Source: Archaeoglobaceae archaeon (GTDB lineage Archaea > Halobacteriota > Archaeoglobi > Archaeoglobales > Archaeoglobaceae). From it: 37,081 nucleotides of DNA. The translations under genes were made by a program, and so were the position numbers. The notes under the pieces were generated by a model that was not told the origin of the DNA, searched no databases, and worked only from the letters and a program-made list of their open reading frames with translations. The stretch's first letter is position 1; every line of letters begins with the position of its first letter. The stretch covers positions 1-37,081 of the forward strand of contig JALSOQ010000018.1 in NCBI GenBank assembly GCA_026986375.1. The letters run 5' to 3'. This document shows positions 5,937 through 31,938 of the stretch, one piece after another.

Positions 5937-6593
5937 CTATAGCACCCTTATGAAGTCCCTTCTCATCAGCCTCAGAACTCTTTCCTCGCTCTCACATATC
6001 TCCTCCGCAACTCTTTTGGCATCCCTAATCCCCGTCATCGCTATGTAGTTCGTTATGAAGTCCTCAGCCACCTCATCATCGTCCAAATCCCACATTCCAG
6101 AAAACATCGGATGGGAGTCGTGCAGGAAGTCTATCACCCCGTCCAGATTTACACCGCTTAAGAGATCACTTACGTAGTCGTGTTCGAAGAAGAGACAGTC
6201 CCTAAGTATTTCGAGCACCGCATCTCTCAGCTTCATAGCGTTGTATTTTCTTTTAGCCGGTGAATACTTCTCGACTATTCTATCCATCTCCTCTCTGGTG
6301 TAATCGAATATCCTCTGCTTTCCACCCTTATCTTTGCATATCTCCATTGCTATTTCGTAAGTCCTTCCGTCTATCGGTGCTACTCTCGTCTTTCCACCGG
6401 AGTTTAGCCTAACCGTATAAACTGGTTCACCGTTTCTGTTCATTACTCTGAAGTCCCTCTTCACCAAATTTTCGAGCTCCATGGGGGTGGCTAAGGCCGA
6501 AATTATCAGCCTTATCAGGCAGTGCTCCTTTAGATCCTTCCTCGATACGGCGTTTATGTATCTAATGTCGAACTCAAGCTGAAGCAGATCCAT
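5937..6593 (-). CDS. tyrosine-recombinase-like protein lacking catalytic residues
   Basis: A 218-residue protein taken from ATG 6593, because a TATA-like box at 6614-6622 lies just upstream; the frame is open to 6635. The order of elements follows a tyrosine recombinase catalytic domain: a helix LIISALATPMELENL where box I (TGLRxxEL) sits, a beta-turn VRLNSGGKTRVAPI like the GKGxKxRxVPI hairpin, then NAMKLRDAVLEIL in the place of the HxLRHTFAT box, followed by SDLLSGVNL like LLGHSxI. Box I Arg is replaced, both box II His are absent, and I see no C-terminal nucleophilic Tyr motif. It would be a non-cutting DNA-binding relative. This is inference from pattern only; no gene name is offered. Confidence 0.6.
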   Translation of the reverse strand: MDLLQLEFDIRYINAVSRKDLKEHCLIRLIISALATPMELENLVKRDFRVMNRNGEPVYTVRLNSGGKTRVAPIDGRTYEIAMEICKDKGGKQRIFDYTREEMDRIVEKYSPAKRKYNAMKLRDAVLEILRDCLFFEHDYVSDLLSGVNLDGVIDFLHDSHPMFSGMWDLDDDEVAEDFITNYIAMTGIRDAKRVAEEICESEERVLRLMRRDFIRVL

Positions 6594-6613
6594 CACAACT
6601 GGCTGTGTAAACG

Positions 6614-6622
6614 GATATATAA
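6614..6622 (-). promoter_or_regulatory. TATA-like box for the recombinase-like gene
   Basis: ATATATAAA lies between two divergent genes. Read on the minus strand as TTTATATAT it is about 25 nt from ATG 6593, the usual archaeal TATA distance for a leaderless message. It directly abuts ATG 6623 of the plus-strand gene, so it cannot serve that start. Confidence 0.5.
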
Positions 6623-6913
6623 ATGTTTGATCCAATGCGGTTCGTGAAACATCCGGCGATAGTTCAGATTAGGGGAAACTTAGAGAGGGAAGAGGAGATG
6701 ATTAAGGTGATTGAAAGGCATGGAGAGGAATTCGAAGTTGAGAGGGTTAGGGAGGGATTGAACATATACTTTTCAGACGTTAACGTTGCGAGAAGGGTCG
6801 TTTCAAAGCTTAACAGGATTTTTAATGCAAACGTCAAGATGAGCACGAAATACGCCGGACTGAGGGGAGGGAAGGTTAGAGTTCTGTTCGTATACAGGTT
6901 GAAAATCGACTAA
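6623..6913 (+). CDS. small protein resembling one domain of archaeal NMD3
   Basis: A 96-residue protein; a second ATG at 6635 would drop four residues. The core, EGLNIYFSDVNVARRVVSKLNRI then a Val-rich strand KVRVLFVYRLKI, matches the pattern of the beta-alpha-beta region of archaeal NMD3 (a strand reading IYF or VYF, a helix of AR-x-V residues, KES-type linker, GK-x-VYRVTYR strand). The zinc-binding CxxC pairs of full NMD3 are absent, so it would be a stand-alone domain, possibly ribosome- or RNA-binding. This resemblance is by eye. It is transcribed away from the recombinase-like gene. The next gene follows after 43 bp of AT-rich sequence with its own TATA-like box. Confidence 0.6.
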   Translation: MFDPMRFVKHPAIVQIRGNLEREEEMIKVIERHGEEFEVERVREGLNIYFSDVNVARRVVSKLNRIFNANVKMSTKYAGLRGGKVRVLFVYRLKID

Positions 6914-19060: not shown

Positions 19061-20629
19061 TCACTCCTCCCAGAAAAGCCTCCTCTGCCTTGCCTTTAAA
19101 ACGGGCTTTTCCTCCTTATTTCTTTCCCTCCAAGATATCCACTCCATCGGAGCGTCCTTGCTCGTTCCTCCGTGACTCGTAAGCCTCTTTCGAACCCTGA
19201 TCAGCACGGGCGCGTTTATCGAAACTCCAGCAACAAGAGCCTGCCCCTTCGTAAGCCCGGGTAACTCCTCTATCATCTCCTTTCCCAAGCTCTCTATGCT
19301 GTTCCTTATGTTCTCCTGATCCGCTGGATTTACTATTCTCATGATTATATGCGTCATGCACTGACTTAAGATGTCGGAATCTATCTTGGCCGGTCTCTGG
19401 CTTATGAGGCAAACTCCGACTCCGAACTTCCTCCCCTCCGCGAGTATGGTTTTTAGCACCGGATAGCTCCTCGCATCCCTCGAAGCGAAGCGATGTGCCT
19501 CCTCTATTATTACGAACACCGGATATTCGAGTTTCTCTCCGTTCCTACCTTTCTCGTAGTTTATCCTCGCGTTCAGAATTCTCTTAAGAAGAACACATGC
19601 CAAGATCTGCTGTTCTATTTCCTCCATCTCGGTAAGCTGTAAAACCGTAGCTTGGCCGGGTTTCAGTATCTCCTTAAGTTCGATGTGCTCGTAGTCGTCC
19701 AGAACGCTCGTGCTCTGAACGAACCTCCTTATCCTCCATATCAACCCGTATGCGGAGGATCTGTAGTTTGAATCCTCCTGAGCTATCTCCTCAAGCTTTT
19801 CTATCAGATCCTCGCTTGTCCACAGCTTTCCCGAAAGCTCTCTGTAAACCTCGTTCAGCAAAGCCTCCATCTTGTCCGTAAGCCTCGGAAGTAGCGTTAC
19901 GAGCTCGTCGTAGTCGAGTTCGCAGACCCTTATCTTTATCTCCCCTTTTCCCAAAACCTTAACCTTTGGAGAGTAATCTCCACGCCTGAACTCCTCCAAT
20001 CCTTCCAGTTCCTTTAAAGTGTGGTATTCCCCGTGCGGATCCAGTATTAACACCGCTCCGCAGTTGTATGGCTTTAATAGCTCTTCAACTACAACTCCGG
20101 CTAAGTAGCTCTTACCGCTCCCCGTAGATGCGAGAATGCACATGTGCTCGCTCGTAACCAAAGCGGCATCGAGGACGACCGGGACGTCTTCATCTCTGTT
20201 CAAAAGGTAGCCTATGTGCATCGAACCTATTTCTCCCGGTCTTTTCTTCATCAAAGCTTCTTGAATCGTCTCAGCTTCCGCCAAGTATATCGGCTGACCC
20301 GGTTTTGGAGGGATTCTCGGATTGACGAAACCCAAGTTCGGATCGTAGTATCCCATTATCGTCGCCCTAACTTCGAAAAGCTCGAACTCCTTCGCGTTGA
20401 TTCCCAAAGCGTTGACTATCCTTTCGGGACTGACCGTAGGCTTGGAAAGATAGAGGTCGGGATAGAGGCGGAGAGGATATCTTTTAACCACTCTGCAGAG
20501 AACCTTTTTGCCGTTCAAATCGTAGTAAACGAACTCTCCGACTTTGAGCTTAGTCTTGTCGGGAGTTATGAACTTGAAATCCAAGGGGGTTTCCGCCGGC
20601 CCCTTTACGAGTCCTATGGGTGTAGGCAT
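19061..20629 (-). CDS. herA: HerA DNA helicase/translocase
   Basis: HerA is a hexameric bipolar DNA helicase that works with NurA, Mre11 and Rad50 on broken DNA ends. The 522-residue protein (from ATG 20629) has an N-terminal HAS-barrel (about 1-100), Walker A ASTGSGKS at 167-174, [12 protein letters not shown], a helical insert, Walker [13 protein letters not shown], the [19 protein letters not shown] segment with its Arg finger region, and a C-terminal basic tail. Unlike the common archaeal arrangement, nurA, mre11 and rad50 are not beside it; it faces metG across a shared promoter. Confidence 0.93.
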
Positions 20630-20650
20630 CCGATATCGATTTGTCGGTAT

Positions 20651-20660
20651 CTTTATATTA
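20651..20660. promoter_or_regulatory. shared TATA region of herA and metG
   Basis: CTTTATATTA is centred about 27 nt from the metG ATG (20683) on the plus strand. Its complement TAATATAAAG is centred about 27 nt from the herA ATG (20629) on the minus strand. Both genes would be leaderless from a single AT-rich core. An 8-bp palindrome CGATATCG lies at 20630-20637. Confidence 0.6.
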
Positions 20661-20682
20661 CTTCTGCCAGCGTTGCTTAGAG

Positions 20683-22647
20683 ATGAAACTCGTAACCTGC
20701 GGTCTGCCATACGCGAACGGAAAGGCTCACATAGGTCATCTAAGAACCTACGTTCCCGCGGACGTTTACGTTCGCTACCTCAGGATGATGGGTGAAGAAG
20801 TTCTCTTTATATGCGGGAGCGACTGCCACGGAACTCCGATAGTCGTAAACGCGGAAAAGGAGGGAATTAGTCCGAAGGAACTCGTCGATAGATACCACGA
20901 GCACTTCCAGAGAATTTTCAAAAAGCTATGCGTAGAGTTCGACTTTTACGGGAGGACTGATGCCGATTACAACCACCGCAGAACTCAGGAGATCGTTAAA
21001 AAGCTCATAGAGAACGGATACGTTTACGCGAAGGAGATCGAACTGGCATACTGTCCGAAGTGCGACAGATTTTTGCCGGACAGATACGTGGAAGGAATTT
21101 GTCCATACTGTGGAGCCATTGCGAGGGGTGATGAATGCGATCAGGGTTGCGGAAGGCACTTGGAGCCGGGGGAGATAAAGGAGCCGAAGTGCAAGATATG
21201 CGGTAGCAGGGCGGAGTTCAGAAAGCAGAAGCACTACTTCTTCAAGCTGACGGCTTTCAGGGATTTCTTGATTGATTACTTGGAGAACAAACTGCAGGGA
21301 ACGGAAAACGCTCTGAACTACGCGAGGCAGTGGGTCAGGTCGGAGCTCAGGGACTGGTGCATAACCAGAAACTTGGAGTGGGGGGTAAAGTTTCCGGGGG
21401 AGGATCTGGTCGTTTACGTGTGGGTGGATGCCCCCATAGGATACATATCCTTTACGGAGCAAGCGTGTAGGCTTAAGGGGCTGGACTGGAAGGAGATATG
21501 GCAGAACGGAGAGATCAGCGATATAACGCACTTCATAGGCCTCGACATAGTTTACCACCACTGCATATTCTGGCCTGCGATGTTGAAGGGGGCAGGATAT
21601 TCGTTGCCAAAAGCGGTGGTCGCGAGCGGGATGGTTAAGGTGGAGGGAAAGACGTTTTCGAAGAGCAGGGGTTACGTCGTATGGGTTGAGGACGACTACT
21701 TAAGGGCGGGATTCAATCCGGACTACCTGCGTTACTACATAGTAAACTACACGTCCCACGAGAAGGATCTGAACTTCTCTTGGCGTGTTTTCATGGAAAA
21801 GGTCAACAAGGAAGTTATCGGGACTCTGGGCAACTTCATATACAGGGTTCTCCACTTCGCATGGAAGAACTTCGGAACCCTCGCCGGGGAAGTGGATGGA
21901 GTAGTCATGGAGAAGATAGCGGAGGTTAAGGAGAAGATAGTTTCCGCAATAAGGAGATGGGAGTTCAAGGAGGCGAGCGACGCTTTCATGGAACTGGCGA
22001 AGTTCGGAAACGAGTATTTCCAGTCGAAGGCTCCTTGGGATCTTATAAAGGAGGATAGGAAGGCATGCGAGAAAGTTTTAATATCGTGCGTTCAGATCGT
22101 GAAAGCGCTTGTGATTTTCTCCTACCCGGTCATGCCGAAGACGATGAAGAAACTTGCCGAACTGCTCAGCATCGAATTGAAGAGTTTGGATGAGGCTTTA
22201 GAGCCTATTGAAAGGATAGAGTTGAAAAAGCCGTTCATTCCGTTCGAGAAGGTGGATGAGAAGAAGATAGAGGAGATGGAGAGGATCATGATGGAGAGGA
22301 TAAGGAGGGCGGAGAGGGCGGAGGTCGAAATAGACATAAAGGATTTCTCGAAGCTCGACATAAGGATAGGCAAGATAGTTAAGGCGGAAAAGATAAAGGG
22401 AAGCAGAAAGCTGATGAAACTCGAAGTCGATGTGGGTGGGGAGGTTAGGCAGATAGTGGCGGGAATAGCGGAAGTTTACGAACCGGAAGAAGTCGTAGGA
22501 AAGCTCGTTCCCGTTTTGGTCAACATAAAGCCCGCGAAGCTCATGGGCGTCGAGAGTATGGGGATGGTGCTCGCCGCGGATGTGGACGGAAAGCCGGTTC
22601 TGCTCCATCCGGATAGGGAAGTCCCTCCGGGTTCGAAGGTGAGATGA
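20683..22647 (+). CDS. metG: methionyl-tRNA synthetase
   Basis: MetRS charges initiator and elongator tRNA-Met. The 654-residue protein begins at ATG 20683 ([20 protein letters not shown]), with HIGH at 16-19. Zinc knuckles follow ([21 protein letters not shown] and CDQGCG ... CKICG), then the catalytic [19 protein letters not shown] as the KMSKS loop, an anticodon-binding helical domain, and a C-terminal OB-fold tRNA-binding domain of the EMAPII/Trbp111 type ([17 protein letters not shown] onward). Some archaea encode that last domain separately; here it is fused. The stop codon lies inside the C box of a guide RNA candidate. Confidence 0.97.
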
Positions 22648-29970: not shown

Positions 29971-30015
29971 TGAGTTTCGGTCGCTCTGAGTGGTGATGAA
30001 ATTTCCTGCGACTGA
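29967..30015 (+). ncRNA. C/D box guide sRNA candidate overlapping the helicase gene start
   Basis: All four boxes are perfect: C ATGATGA (29967-29973), 12-nt guide GTTTCGGTCGCT, D' CTGA (29986-29989), 3-nt spacer GTG, C' GTGATGA (29993-29999), 12-nt guide AATTTCCTGCGA, D CTGA (30012-30015). Both guides have the 12-nt length preferred in archaea. Box-plus-five predicts methylation of the A opposite T29981 (target AGCGA...) and the A opposite T30007 (target UCGCA...). No strong terminal stem is seen. It overlaps ATG 29996 of the helicase gene, though a GTG start at 30023 lies just past the D box. Targets were not searched. Confidence 0.85.
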
Positions 30016-31938
30016 GAAGTTCGTGAGGAAACTCATAGAGCTCGTTGAAATTGAGAGGGAAGCGGAAATATCCGCGATGAGAGAAGAGATGCGAAGGCTC
30101 AGCGGTGAGCAGAGGGAAAGACTGGGTAGGGCTATTTTGGGTTTGAACGGCAAGGTAATAGGGGAGGAGTTTGGATACAAGCTCGTGAAGTTCGGGAGGA
30201 GCAGGAAGATAAGGACAGACATAGCCGTTGGTGATTCGGTAATAGTTAGCTACGGGAATCCTTTGAAGAGCGATTACGTGGGTGTGGTTGTTGAGAAGGG
30301 AAGCAGATACGTTGTGGTAGCGCTCGAATCCGTTCCCAAGAACTTGAGAAACGTCAGAATAGATCTGTTCGTAAGCGAGATAACGTTCAAGAGGATGATC
30401 GAAAATCTGAGGAATCTGAACGAGAACGGAGTTAGAGCTTTGGAATTCGCTTTGGGATTGAGAGCTCCCGAAAAGCCCGAGCCGGAGGAATTCCACTCCT
30501 CGAAATTAAACGAAAGTCAGAGGAAGGCGGTTAGCTTGGCTTTGGGGAGCAAAGATTTCTTCCTAATCCACGGCCCGTTCGGAACCGGAAAGACCAAAAC
30601 GCTCGTCGAGTTCGTAGTGGAGGAGGTTAGGAGGGGAAATAGGGTCCTCGCCACCGCGGAAAGCAACGTTGCCGTGGACAATCTCGTAGAAAGGTTGAAG
30701 GGAAGGGTGGAGTTGGTTAGACTGGGTCATCCGGCGAGAGTTTCGAAGGATCTGAAGGAAACCACTCTCTTTTCTAAGATCGAGAGGCATCCGAAGTTTT
30801 CGGAGGTTTTGAAGCTTAGGAGGATTGCGGAAGATATAATCGCAAAGCGCGATTCCTACAGGAAACCTGTTCCCCAGCTGAGAAGGGGTTTGAGCGATGA
30901 AGAGATACTGGAGCTTGCTAAAAAGCGAAGGGGAGCGAGGGGTTTGAGTGCTAAAGTGATAGAATCCATGGCGAGGTGGATAGAGTTCAACAGAAGGGCA
31001 GGAGAGCTTTTGGAAAAGGCCAAGGAGTTGGAGGAGGAGATAGAGAAGGAGTTGATCGAAAGCGCGGAAGTGGTCTTAAGCACGAACTCCACGGCGTTCC
31101 TTCTTGAGAACGATTTCGACGTCGTGGTCGTGGATGAAGCTACTCAGGCTACGATTCCGAGCGTTCTGATTCCGATCTCTAAATCTCTAAGGCTGAGAGG
31201 TTCGTGATGGCTGGAGATCACAAACAGCTACCTCCGACGGTTTTGAAGGCTAAGGAGTTGAGCAGGACGTTATTCGAGATGCTGATTTCCAAACATCCTC
31301 AGAATTCTGCAATGCTCGAAGTTCAGTATAGGATGAACTCCTGGCTGATGAAGTTCCCGAACGAGGAATTCTACGGCGGAAGGATAAAGGCGGACGAGAG
31401 CGTTAGGAACATAACTCTCAGGGATTTGGGCGTTAAACCTCCTGAATTCGGAGAGCCTTGGGACGAAATACTAAGGCCGGAGAACGTTCTGGTCTTCGTG
31501 GACACGTCCAAATGTCCAGACAGGTGGGAAAGGCGGAGGAGGGGATCGACATCGAGGGAAAATCCATTGGAGGCAAAAATAGTCGTGAACATAGTAGAAA
31601 GGTTGCTCGAAATTGGTGTTAGGGAGGAATGGGTGGGTGTAATAACGCCATACGAGGATCAGGTGGATCTCCTCCGCTCGAAGCTCGATGTTGAGGTGAA
31701 TACAGTCGACGGCTATCAGGGGAGGGAGAAGGAAGTGGTAATAATTTCGTTCGTCAGGAGCAACAGAAAAGGAGATTTGGGGTTTCTCGCGGATCTCAGA
31801 AGGCTTAACACCGCGTTAACGAGGGCTAAGAGGAAGCTGATATGCGTCGGGGATGGTGAAACCCTAAACTCGCACGAAACTTACAGGAGGTTTCTGGAGT
31901 TCGTCAAAAGGGAGGGTAAGTTCATTCCCTTCTGCTGA
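29996..31938 (+). pseudogene. DNA2/UPF1-type superfamily 1 helicase, frameshifted
   Basis: One helicase gene is split in two frames: ATG 29996 to TGA 31207, and about 31183 to 31938. The first part has an N-terminal beta domain, Walker A GPFGTGKT (193-200), motif Ia ATAESNVAVDNL and motif II VVVDEATQA. The second has motif III AGDHKQLPPTV, QYRM, VDGYQGREKEVVIIS and LNTALTRAKRKL. Together they give about 645 residues, normal for this family. The break is an exact 8-bp tandem duplication at 31175-31190; without one copy the frame runs through as ISKAERFVMAGDHK. All other motifs are intact, so the event is recent or a sequencing artefact. GTG 30023 is an alternative start. Confidence 0.85.
31175..31190. 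repeat. 8-bp tandem duplication breaking the helicase frame
   Basis: ATCTCTAA occurs twice back to back. Removing either copy joins codons for PIS to KAERFVMAGD and restores the helicase motif III region. The event fits slipped-strand replication. Confidence 0.9.

Follow-up and report, generated by a model that had tools for sequence, protein, structure and literature searches.

Archaeal XerA recombines dif sites, according to PMC2958812, where the catalytic set is given as R-K-H-R-[H/W]-Y; for the P. abyssi enzyme, PMC3646895 names residues R135, K160, H226 and Y261. Two described proteins carry this fold in inactivated form. MrpR, according to PMC10516654, has a recombinase fold without most of the catalytic residues and acts as a repressor through DNA binding, and TnsF of the Tn6022-like transposons has, according to PMC10293859, an inactivated tyrosine recombinase domain that chooses the DNA site. 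In a review of archaeal tyrosine recombinases, Archaeoglobales come up twice, in connection with an integrase and its tRNA sites, and the word does not occur in the main texts of PMC2958812 and PMC5357621. Among the matches listed for titles and abstract openings in the open-licence PMC literature, no description was found of the inactivated recombinase family that is presented here.

The window, that is, the whole stretch of 37,081 nucleotides of Archaeoglobaceae DNA that was analysed, encodes a 218-aa protein with an ATG start at 5937-6593 on the minus strand, exactly as the sequence-only reading had placed it. A longer ORF that starts with TTG (5937-6635) was judged unlikely because four relatives from the same genus share the N-terminus MDLLQLEF and every one of the five sequences from the genus has a TATA-like box about 25 nt 5' of the ATG. 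A box at about this distance before the start codon is the expectation for a leaderless archaeal transcript, and its position in the sequence suggests one here. No tRNA gene was found in the window.

5937..6593, minus strand: inactivated tyrosine-recombinase-fold gene, 218 aa plus stop (ORF, translation, family alignment A1 and predicted model)
6615..6623, minus strand: TATA-like box upstream of the ATG (from sequence)
6087..6593, minus strand: predicted recombinase catalytic-domain fold, residues 1-169 (VIA-align to 4a8e, hhalign to XerA)
5940..6086, minus strand: C-terminal acidic stretch and three-helix HTH-like part, residues 170-218 (separate model, fold look-ups)

The model of the 218-aa protein, made from 49 aligned sequences, has a mean pLDDT of 93.7 and a pTM of 0.91. 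Its top VIA-align match is the archaeal Xer 4a8e (Z 18.4, rmsd 2.6, 158 of 218 residues aligned), with model residues 1-169 pairing with residues 102-279 of the 4a8e chain; XerA 5hxy (Z 14.7) and a mycobacteriophage integrase (14.6) are the runners-up among the matches listed, which also include the SSV1 integrase (11.3) and XerD 1a0p (11.1). The comparison with Xer and SSV integrase that had been proposed from the sequence accordingly returns a fold of the recombinase type. We take 4a8e to be the P. abyssi XerA of PMC3646895. All 50 matches listed are recombinases or integrases, one topoisomerase IB and recombinase-fold repressors. In Foldseek against the PDB, the list is headed by rows for XerH, human topoisomerase I, XerA and Cre, of which seven reach E<=0.001, and the whole-model TM-scores among the 50 matches listed are modest (0.37-0.54 by query).

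Profile comparison points in the same direction. The family scored 96.3% (E 2e-9) in hhalign against 16 archaeal XerA and 95.6% against an 18-row alignment of short recombinases, a ‘catalytic-domain-only' set, also used in the tree, that includes two perhaps split full-length genes (L162 and L169); this signal is more than chance because 60 column-shuffled controls stayed at or below 4.2% (30 based on XerA) and 0.9% (30 based on the short recombinases). Against 15 archaeal integrases, the score was 30.1% (E 5.5e-4). The NCBIfam model XerA_Arch (NF040815) is matched by 32 of the 49 members at E<=1 (best 8.8e-7), the Pfam model Phage_integrase (PF00589) by 15 (best 4.8e-4) and a PHROG integrase family by eight (best 2.1e-5). 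The NF040815 cut-off of 220 bits is not reached by any of these, and the window protein alone has no NCBIfam match at E<=1 and no significant match in Pfam, NCBIfam or PHROG; the family profile has no match at E<=10 among the PDB sequences. In a tree of recombinases, the family forms its own fully supported group, from which the nearest relative cannot be told because the branch is long and the root arbitrary. By its predicted fold and its profile matches, the 218-aa protein is a member of the tyrosine recombinase, or DNA breaking-rejoining, fold superfamily. The recombinase-like order of helices, the GGKTRVAPI hairpin and the LRDA and LLSGV segments that the sequence-only reading had picked out do correspond to recombinase elements in the predicted fold: the hairpin is covered by hhalign, LRDA is added by the catalytic-domain alignment and LLSGV was placed by hand.

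The four segments in which the active site would lie are the following.

6471..6500, minus strand: former box I, SALATPMELE, residues 32-41, with Thr36 at the position of the catalytic Arg and Glu39 kept (hhalign and column counts)
6369..6407, minus strand: beta hairpin, residues 63-75 (LNSGGKTRVAPID), with the catalytic Lys position at about Ser65 (alignments and column counts)
6219..6245, minus strand: former box II, YNAMKLRDA, residues 117-125, with Met120 in place of the His and Arg123 retained in 42 of 49 members (alignments)
6111..6152, minus strand: former His III/Tyr region, residues 148-161, with Val148 in the His column and Phe156 in the Tyr column (by hand from secondary structure)

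The active site is broken in all 49 aligned members. The box I Arg and the first His are lost in 48 members each and the second His/Trp in all 49, and the Tyr is replaced in 48; the box I Glu is retained in all 49 and the box II Arg in 42, including the window protein, for which this is the only one kept of the six catalytic residues. Across the family, one or none of the six is kept in 42 members (Arg II alone in 35, Lys alone in four, none in three), two in six members and three in a single one, with no member keeping more. The XerA box I TGVRVSEL aligns with ALATPMEL, where position 36 is Thr in 36 members, Ser in six, Asp in six and Arg in one, and position 39 is always Glu. The hairpin GGKTRVAPID aligns with the KGxKxR hairpin, with an invariant Arg70 and mostly Lys or Arg at position 68; the column taken for the catalytic Lys, at about Ser65, has Lys in nine of the 49, and its placement is uncertain because of gaps in the hairpin alignment. 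The HxLRH of box II aligns with MKLRD, and the Met120 column has His in one member. The remaining two columns are placed less certainly than boxes I and II: that of the third His (Val148) has His or Trp in none of the 49 members, and that of the Tyr (Phe156) has Phe in 42 and Tyr in one. When the latter is loosened to positions 152-160, Tyr appears in 18 members, none of which combines it with an Arg or His when the other columns are loosened likewise; in the window protein, this range is free of Tyr and position 164 is Phe. The loss of the box I Arg, both His and the Tyr, claimed for the one protein, therefore extends to the whole family, and the search for a Tyr in the correct geometry yields the single member with an aligned Tyr, which otherwise keeps only Arg II. 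Judged by its residues, the 218-aa protein is not an active recombinase.

Nor, by the layout of the predicted model, is it XerA. The archaeal XerA (4a8e, 5hxy; NF040815) provides the best structural and profile match, sharing the catalytic-domain fold, the box I Glu and mostly Arg II. However, the 218-aa protein has lost Arg I, the Lys, both His and the Tyr, has an additional C-terminal part and does not have the N-terminal core-binding domain, the model beginning at residue 102 of the 4a8e chain. The C-terminal part, when modelled apart (pLDDT 81.0), consists of an acidic stretch and three helices after residue 169. The fold ranking among the matches listed includes LsrR, Lrp-type, Z-alpha, DeoR, sigma region 4 and FtsK-gamma, so that the best-ranked rows are mostly HTH or winged-helix DNA-binding domains, with Z up to 7.1, a level that the tool calls common. 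Foldseek gave no match with E below 1 for this part, and its Pfam matches are weak and mixed (HTH_23 at 0.0028 in two of the 49 fragments, with non-HTH families matching equally many fragments); the HTH identity is a lead from the model, not a finding. Charge is an argument against DNA binding: from residue 170 onward, the proteins are acidic (pI 4.05-5.34 in the 49 members), although the last helix is positive (median +2), and the net charge of the recombinase-like part lies close to zero, with a median of 0 and -2 in the window protein, although ten XerA comparators are similarly low at -1 to +3.

MrpR/YopR of the SP-beta prophage (8a0a, 8bpz) resembles the 218-aa protein in having the recombinase fold with most catalytic residues lost (Z 10.1 for 8bpz), but is phage-encoded, has a core-binding domain and retains the Lys and the Tyr. 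Two family members weakly match the Pfam model of the MrpR core-binding domain (0.0092), which is the closest link found between the two. SroF of phi3T (9rgl, 9rd5) scores higher, with Z 12.1 and 11.2; it too is phage-encoded and has about 310 residues, and its function is taken from the titles of the structure entries, which name a DNA-bound repressor. We take SroF to be non-catalytic; no paper on it was found in the open-licence PMC literature. TnsF, compared with the 218-aa protein by its published description, differs in being transposon-encoded and in its N-terminal zinc fingers. Outside the family, the A1 profile matches best (E 4e-10) to the short tyrosine recombinases of family f4 of the same phylum (L150-L154), which are likewise open frames without the core-binding part; in contrast to the family, they keep the box I Arg and the Lys and do not have the HTH-like tail. 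The box III His and the Tyr are kept in the five of these that are not cut off (L152 is), and one L154 copy has Ser at Arg II. The family is a new chromosomal archaeal one, of a known kind (MrpR, TnsF, SroF) but with a different layout.

In a protein search that covered 59 genomes of the class, with the source genome among them, the gene turned up in 52 of the 55 Archaeoglobaceae genomes, across 13 genera, and in none of the four others; the three Archaeoglobaceae genomes without it are 79, 54 and 78% complete. The question of whether the gene is conserved in all Archaeoglobales is thus answered positively for its own family and negatively for the order, given that it was not found in either of the two genomes from another family. 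Each of these genomes has a single listed match, except for second partial copies in G030 and G044, which sit at contig ends of genomes in many contigs, and for a weak, unrelated-looking second match in the source genome (C13:84870, E 2.7e-4), where the long frame reads by eye as a Hel308-type helicase, so that this match was treated as chance. The nine named records matched in the genome collection are Archaeoglobaceae, Archaeoglobales or Archaeoglobus MAGs. At E<=0.01, the family profile matches 54 of 294 genomes of the phylum, 49 of them Archaeoglobaceae and five from elsewhere, whose matches are partial (best E 2e-8); among the latter, those in f4 and G226 are recombinases with catalytic motifs (one short copy is cut off and one has Ser at Arg II), and the G118 match falls inside a XerA over the cut-off. 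No relative was found among viral contigs with either the window protein or the family profile, or in plasmid and phage collections with the window protein. Within the genus (five genomes), dN/dS is 0.039-0.087 in nine of the ten pairs, three of which have a dS of about 2 or more, near saturation; for the tenth pair, dS could not be computed. The L007/L008 value was excluded because of its saturated dS of 5.0. Domestication of a recombinase, as suggested from the sequence, is well supported inside the family by this wide presence, the low dN/dS and the absence of relatives in the viral, plasmid and phage sets.

Taken together, the predicted fold, homology, active-site loss, family conservation and purifying selection support the reading, to which we assign a probability of about 0.6, that the gene encodes a vertically kept, chromosomal, non-catalytic, putative DNA-binding protein that descends from a XerA-like recombinase. 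That the dead enzyme turned into a DNA binder is what we infer, and the working mode likely resembles that of MrpR and TnsF. A XerA-like catalytic domain would have lost its chemistry by the time of the Archaeoglobaceae ancestor and would have been kept ever since. Duplex DNA could then be held uncut in the recombinase cleft via Arg II, the Lys or Arg at position 68 and the hairpin Arg70, and the HTH-like C-terminal part might add a second contact or a surface for a partner. The most likely use would be to mark or shape particular sites on the chromosome, either as a regulator or as an architectural factor, with a possible tie to DNA processing by HerA, Mre11 and Rad50 in the genera in which these genes are adjacent. 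If so, a cellular, vertically inherited archaeal family joins the recombinase-fold proteins that have seemingly turned into plain DNA binders, the others named here (MrpR, TnsF and SroF) being phage or transposon proteins.

A different function, which we consider rather unlikely but the one that fares best among the alternatives, is that of a protein-protein adaptor, with the fold serving as a scaffold for HerA, Mre11-Rad50 or another replication or repair factor and not binding DNA alone. The acidic C-terminal part is compatible with such a role, and of the eleven positions that are invariant in the 49 members, those outside the former active site (Ser17, His24, Ser111, Asp132, Pro162 and Trp168, among others) point to a new constraint. 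Genomic context also speaks for an adaptor in part of the family. In 11 of the 52 genomes (G002, G003, G005, G033, G045, G046, G049, G051, G052, G053 and G054), from the genera g2, g10 and g13, herA is the next downstream gene on the same strand. At the nine loci that were read, the first possible herA start lies -47 to 85 nt from the end of the gene, and mre11 comes after herA at seven of them and rad50 at six, the rest of the loci stopping short of it; the gene families were assigned for L057, and by similarity for the other loci. A complex of a recombinase with a translocase is known for XerD and FtsK gamma (title of 5dcf), and the link to HerA, which covers three genera, is suggestive because HerA is named as a possible FtsK analogue in PMC2958812. 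On the other hand, herA is non-adjacent in 41 of the 52 genomes, and Arg70, which is invariant, and Arg123, present in 42 of the 49 members, occupy the recombinase hairpin and box II positions. In 18 genomes there is a herA with at least 61% identity to the one in L057; seven of these have it apart from the gene, at a distance of 28 kb in G001 and 15.6 kb in G004, and the linkage may be a single inherited arrangement. Within the window, an own HerA-like ATPase is encoded at 19061-20710 on the minus strand, 12.5 kb from the gene, and is about 30% identical to the family-adjacent HerA; no match to Mre11 or Rad50 was found within the window.

A bolder and doubtful version combines these elements: without a conserved canonical XerA, the Archaeoglobaceae might have replaced the recombinase with the dead Xer domain, which would partner the FtsK-superfamily HerA, with Mre11-Rad50 in addition. 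If true, this would be a Xer-FtsK-like coupling for DNA-end processing or for marking chromosomal sites, without recombination.

It is very unlikely that the protein is an active recombinase that uses other residues or acts in trans with an intact one, even though Arg II is present in 42 of the 49 members, a Tyr lies within 152-160 in 18 and at 164 in 22, and a PF00589 match over the cut-off is available as a potential partner in 43 of the 59 genomes of the class. The catalytic Arg I, His II and His III are gone, and neither the 152-160 range nor position 164 of the window protein offers a Tyr. Furthermore, G033 (96% complete) and G048 (99%) have the gene and no PF00589 or NF040815 match at E<=0.01, so that an active partner recombinase of either kind is not needed there for the gene to persist. 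How chromosome dimers are resolved in genomes such as these two thereby becomes a testable question. Among well-sequenced genomes of the class, eight of 43 have no PF00589 match at E<=0.01; seven of these are Archaeoglobaceae, all with the gene. Counting these seven as recombinase-free was dropped, given that five have NF040815 matches at E<=0.01, namely G037 (4.3e-17, in a 384-codon frame), G027 (3e-12, with stops), G024 (4.5e-5) and G041 and G035 (about 1e-3), some of which may be the inactivated recombinase gene itself. The NF040815 cut-off is reached in one of the 59 genomes of the class (G007, at a place other than that of the gene) and, with G007 included, in 43 of the 156 genomes sampled from the phylum. 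Because only this minority exceeds the cut-off, a missing scoring XerA is common and is not claimed as a peculiarity of Archaeoglobaceae.

The other recombinase-like genes encountered are varied. The source genome has a single one over the PF00589 cut-off (L088, C5:101298-101687), which is divergent and lies in a 424-codon frame. Several families of the phylum have frames of about 160-240 codons that match the catalytic part of XerA only (L150-L168), mostly with catalytic motifs where read, and L162 and L169 look like split full-length genes, with an N-terminal match in the neighbouring frame.

That the gene is a decaying remnant of an old mobile element with no present function is highly improbable: the recombinase fold is common in mobile elements and, in L013, an ORF close to the gene resembles a transposase by eye, but no mobile-element family was identified among the neighbours by family search, and neither the presence in 52 of 55 family genomes and 13 genera, nor the dN/dS of 0.04-0.09, nor the eleven invariant positions fit decay. 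Just as improbable is an unrelated helical protein with a chance likeness to recombinases, which would suit the window protein's want of significant family matches, the failure of the profile to match PDB sequences at E<=10 and the predicted nature of the structure, but not the Z of 18.4 to an archaeal Xer, the hhalign E of 2e-9 with clean shuffled controls or the alignment of the invariant Glu and Arg with recombinase positions.

The gene upstream is divergently oriented.

6623..6913, plus strand: divergent 96-aa protein like the C-terminal part of NMD3 (family search and neighbour profile)

This NMD3-like neighbour is present at 24 of 49 loci by profile and at 25 of 50 by tblastn; the 41 loci of a first clustering were put down to overlapping reading frames. 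A stand-alone NMD3-C-like protein occurs in 10 of the 11 Archaeoglobaceae genomes checked, away from the gene in five of the ten, and the linkage was rejected as a clue to function on these counts. At other loci, the neighbours are OB-fold, Sir2, topoisomerase VI-A, NIF3, TctA or eIF2-gamma genes. In the window, alaS (by eye) lies beyond the NMD3-C-like gene, and behind the gene come a 292-aa protein without a Pfam family, a CLP1-like kinase, UPF0047 and EMG1. Farther along, at 29990-31938 on the plus strand, a superfamily I helicase-like gene (by eye) is present as two overlapping ORFs of 405 and 244 codons, which has the look of a frameshift.
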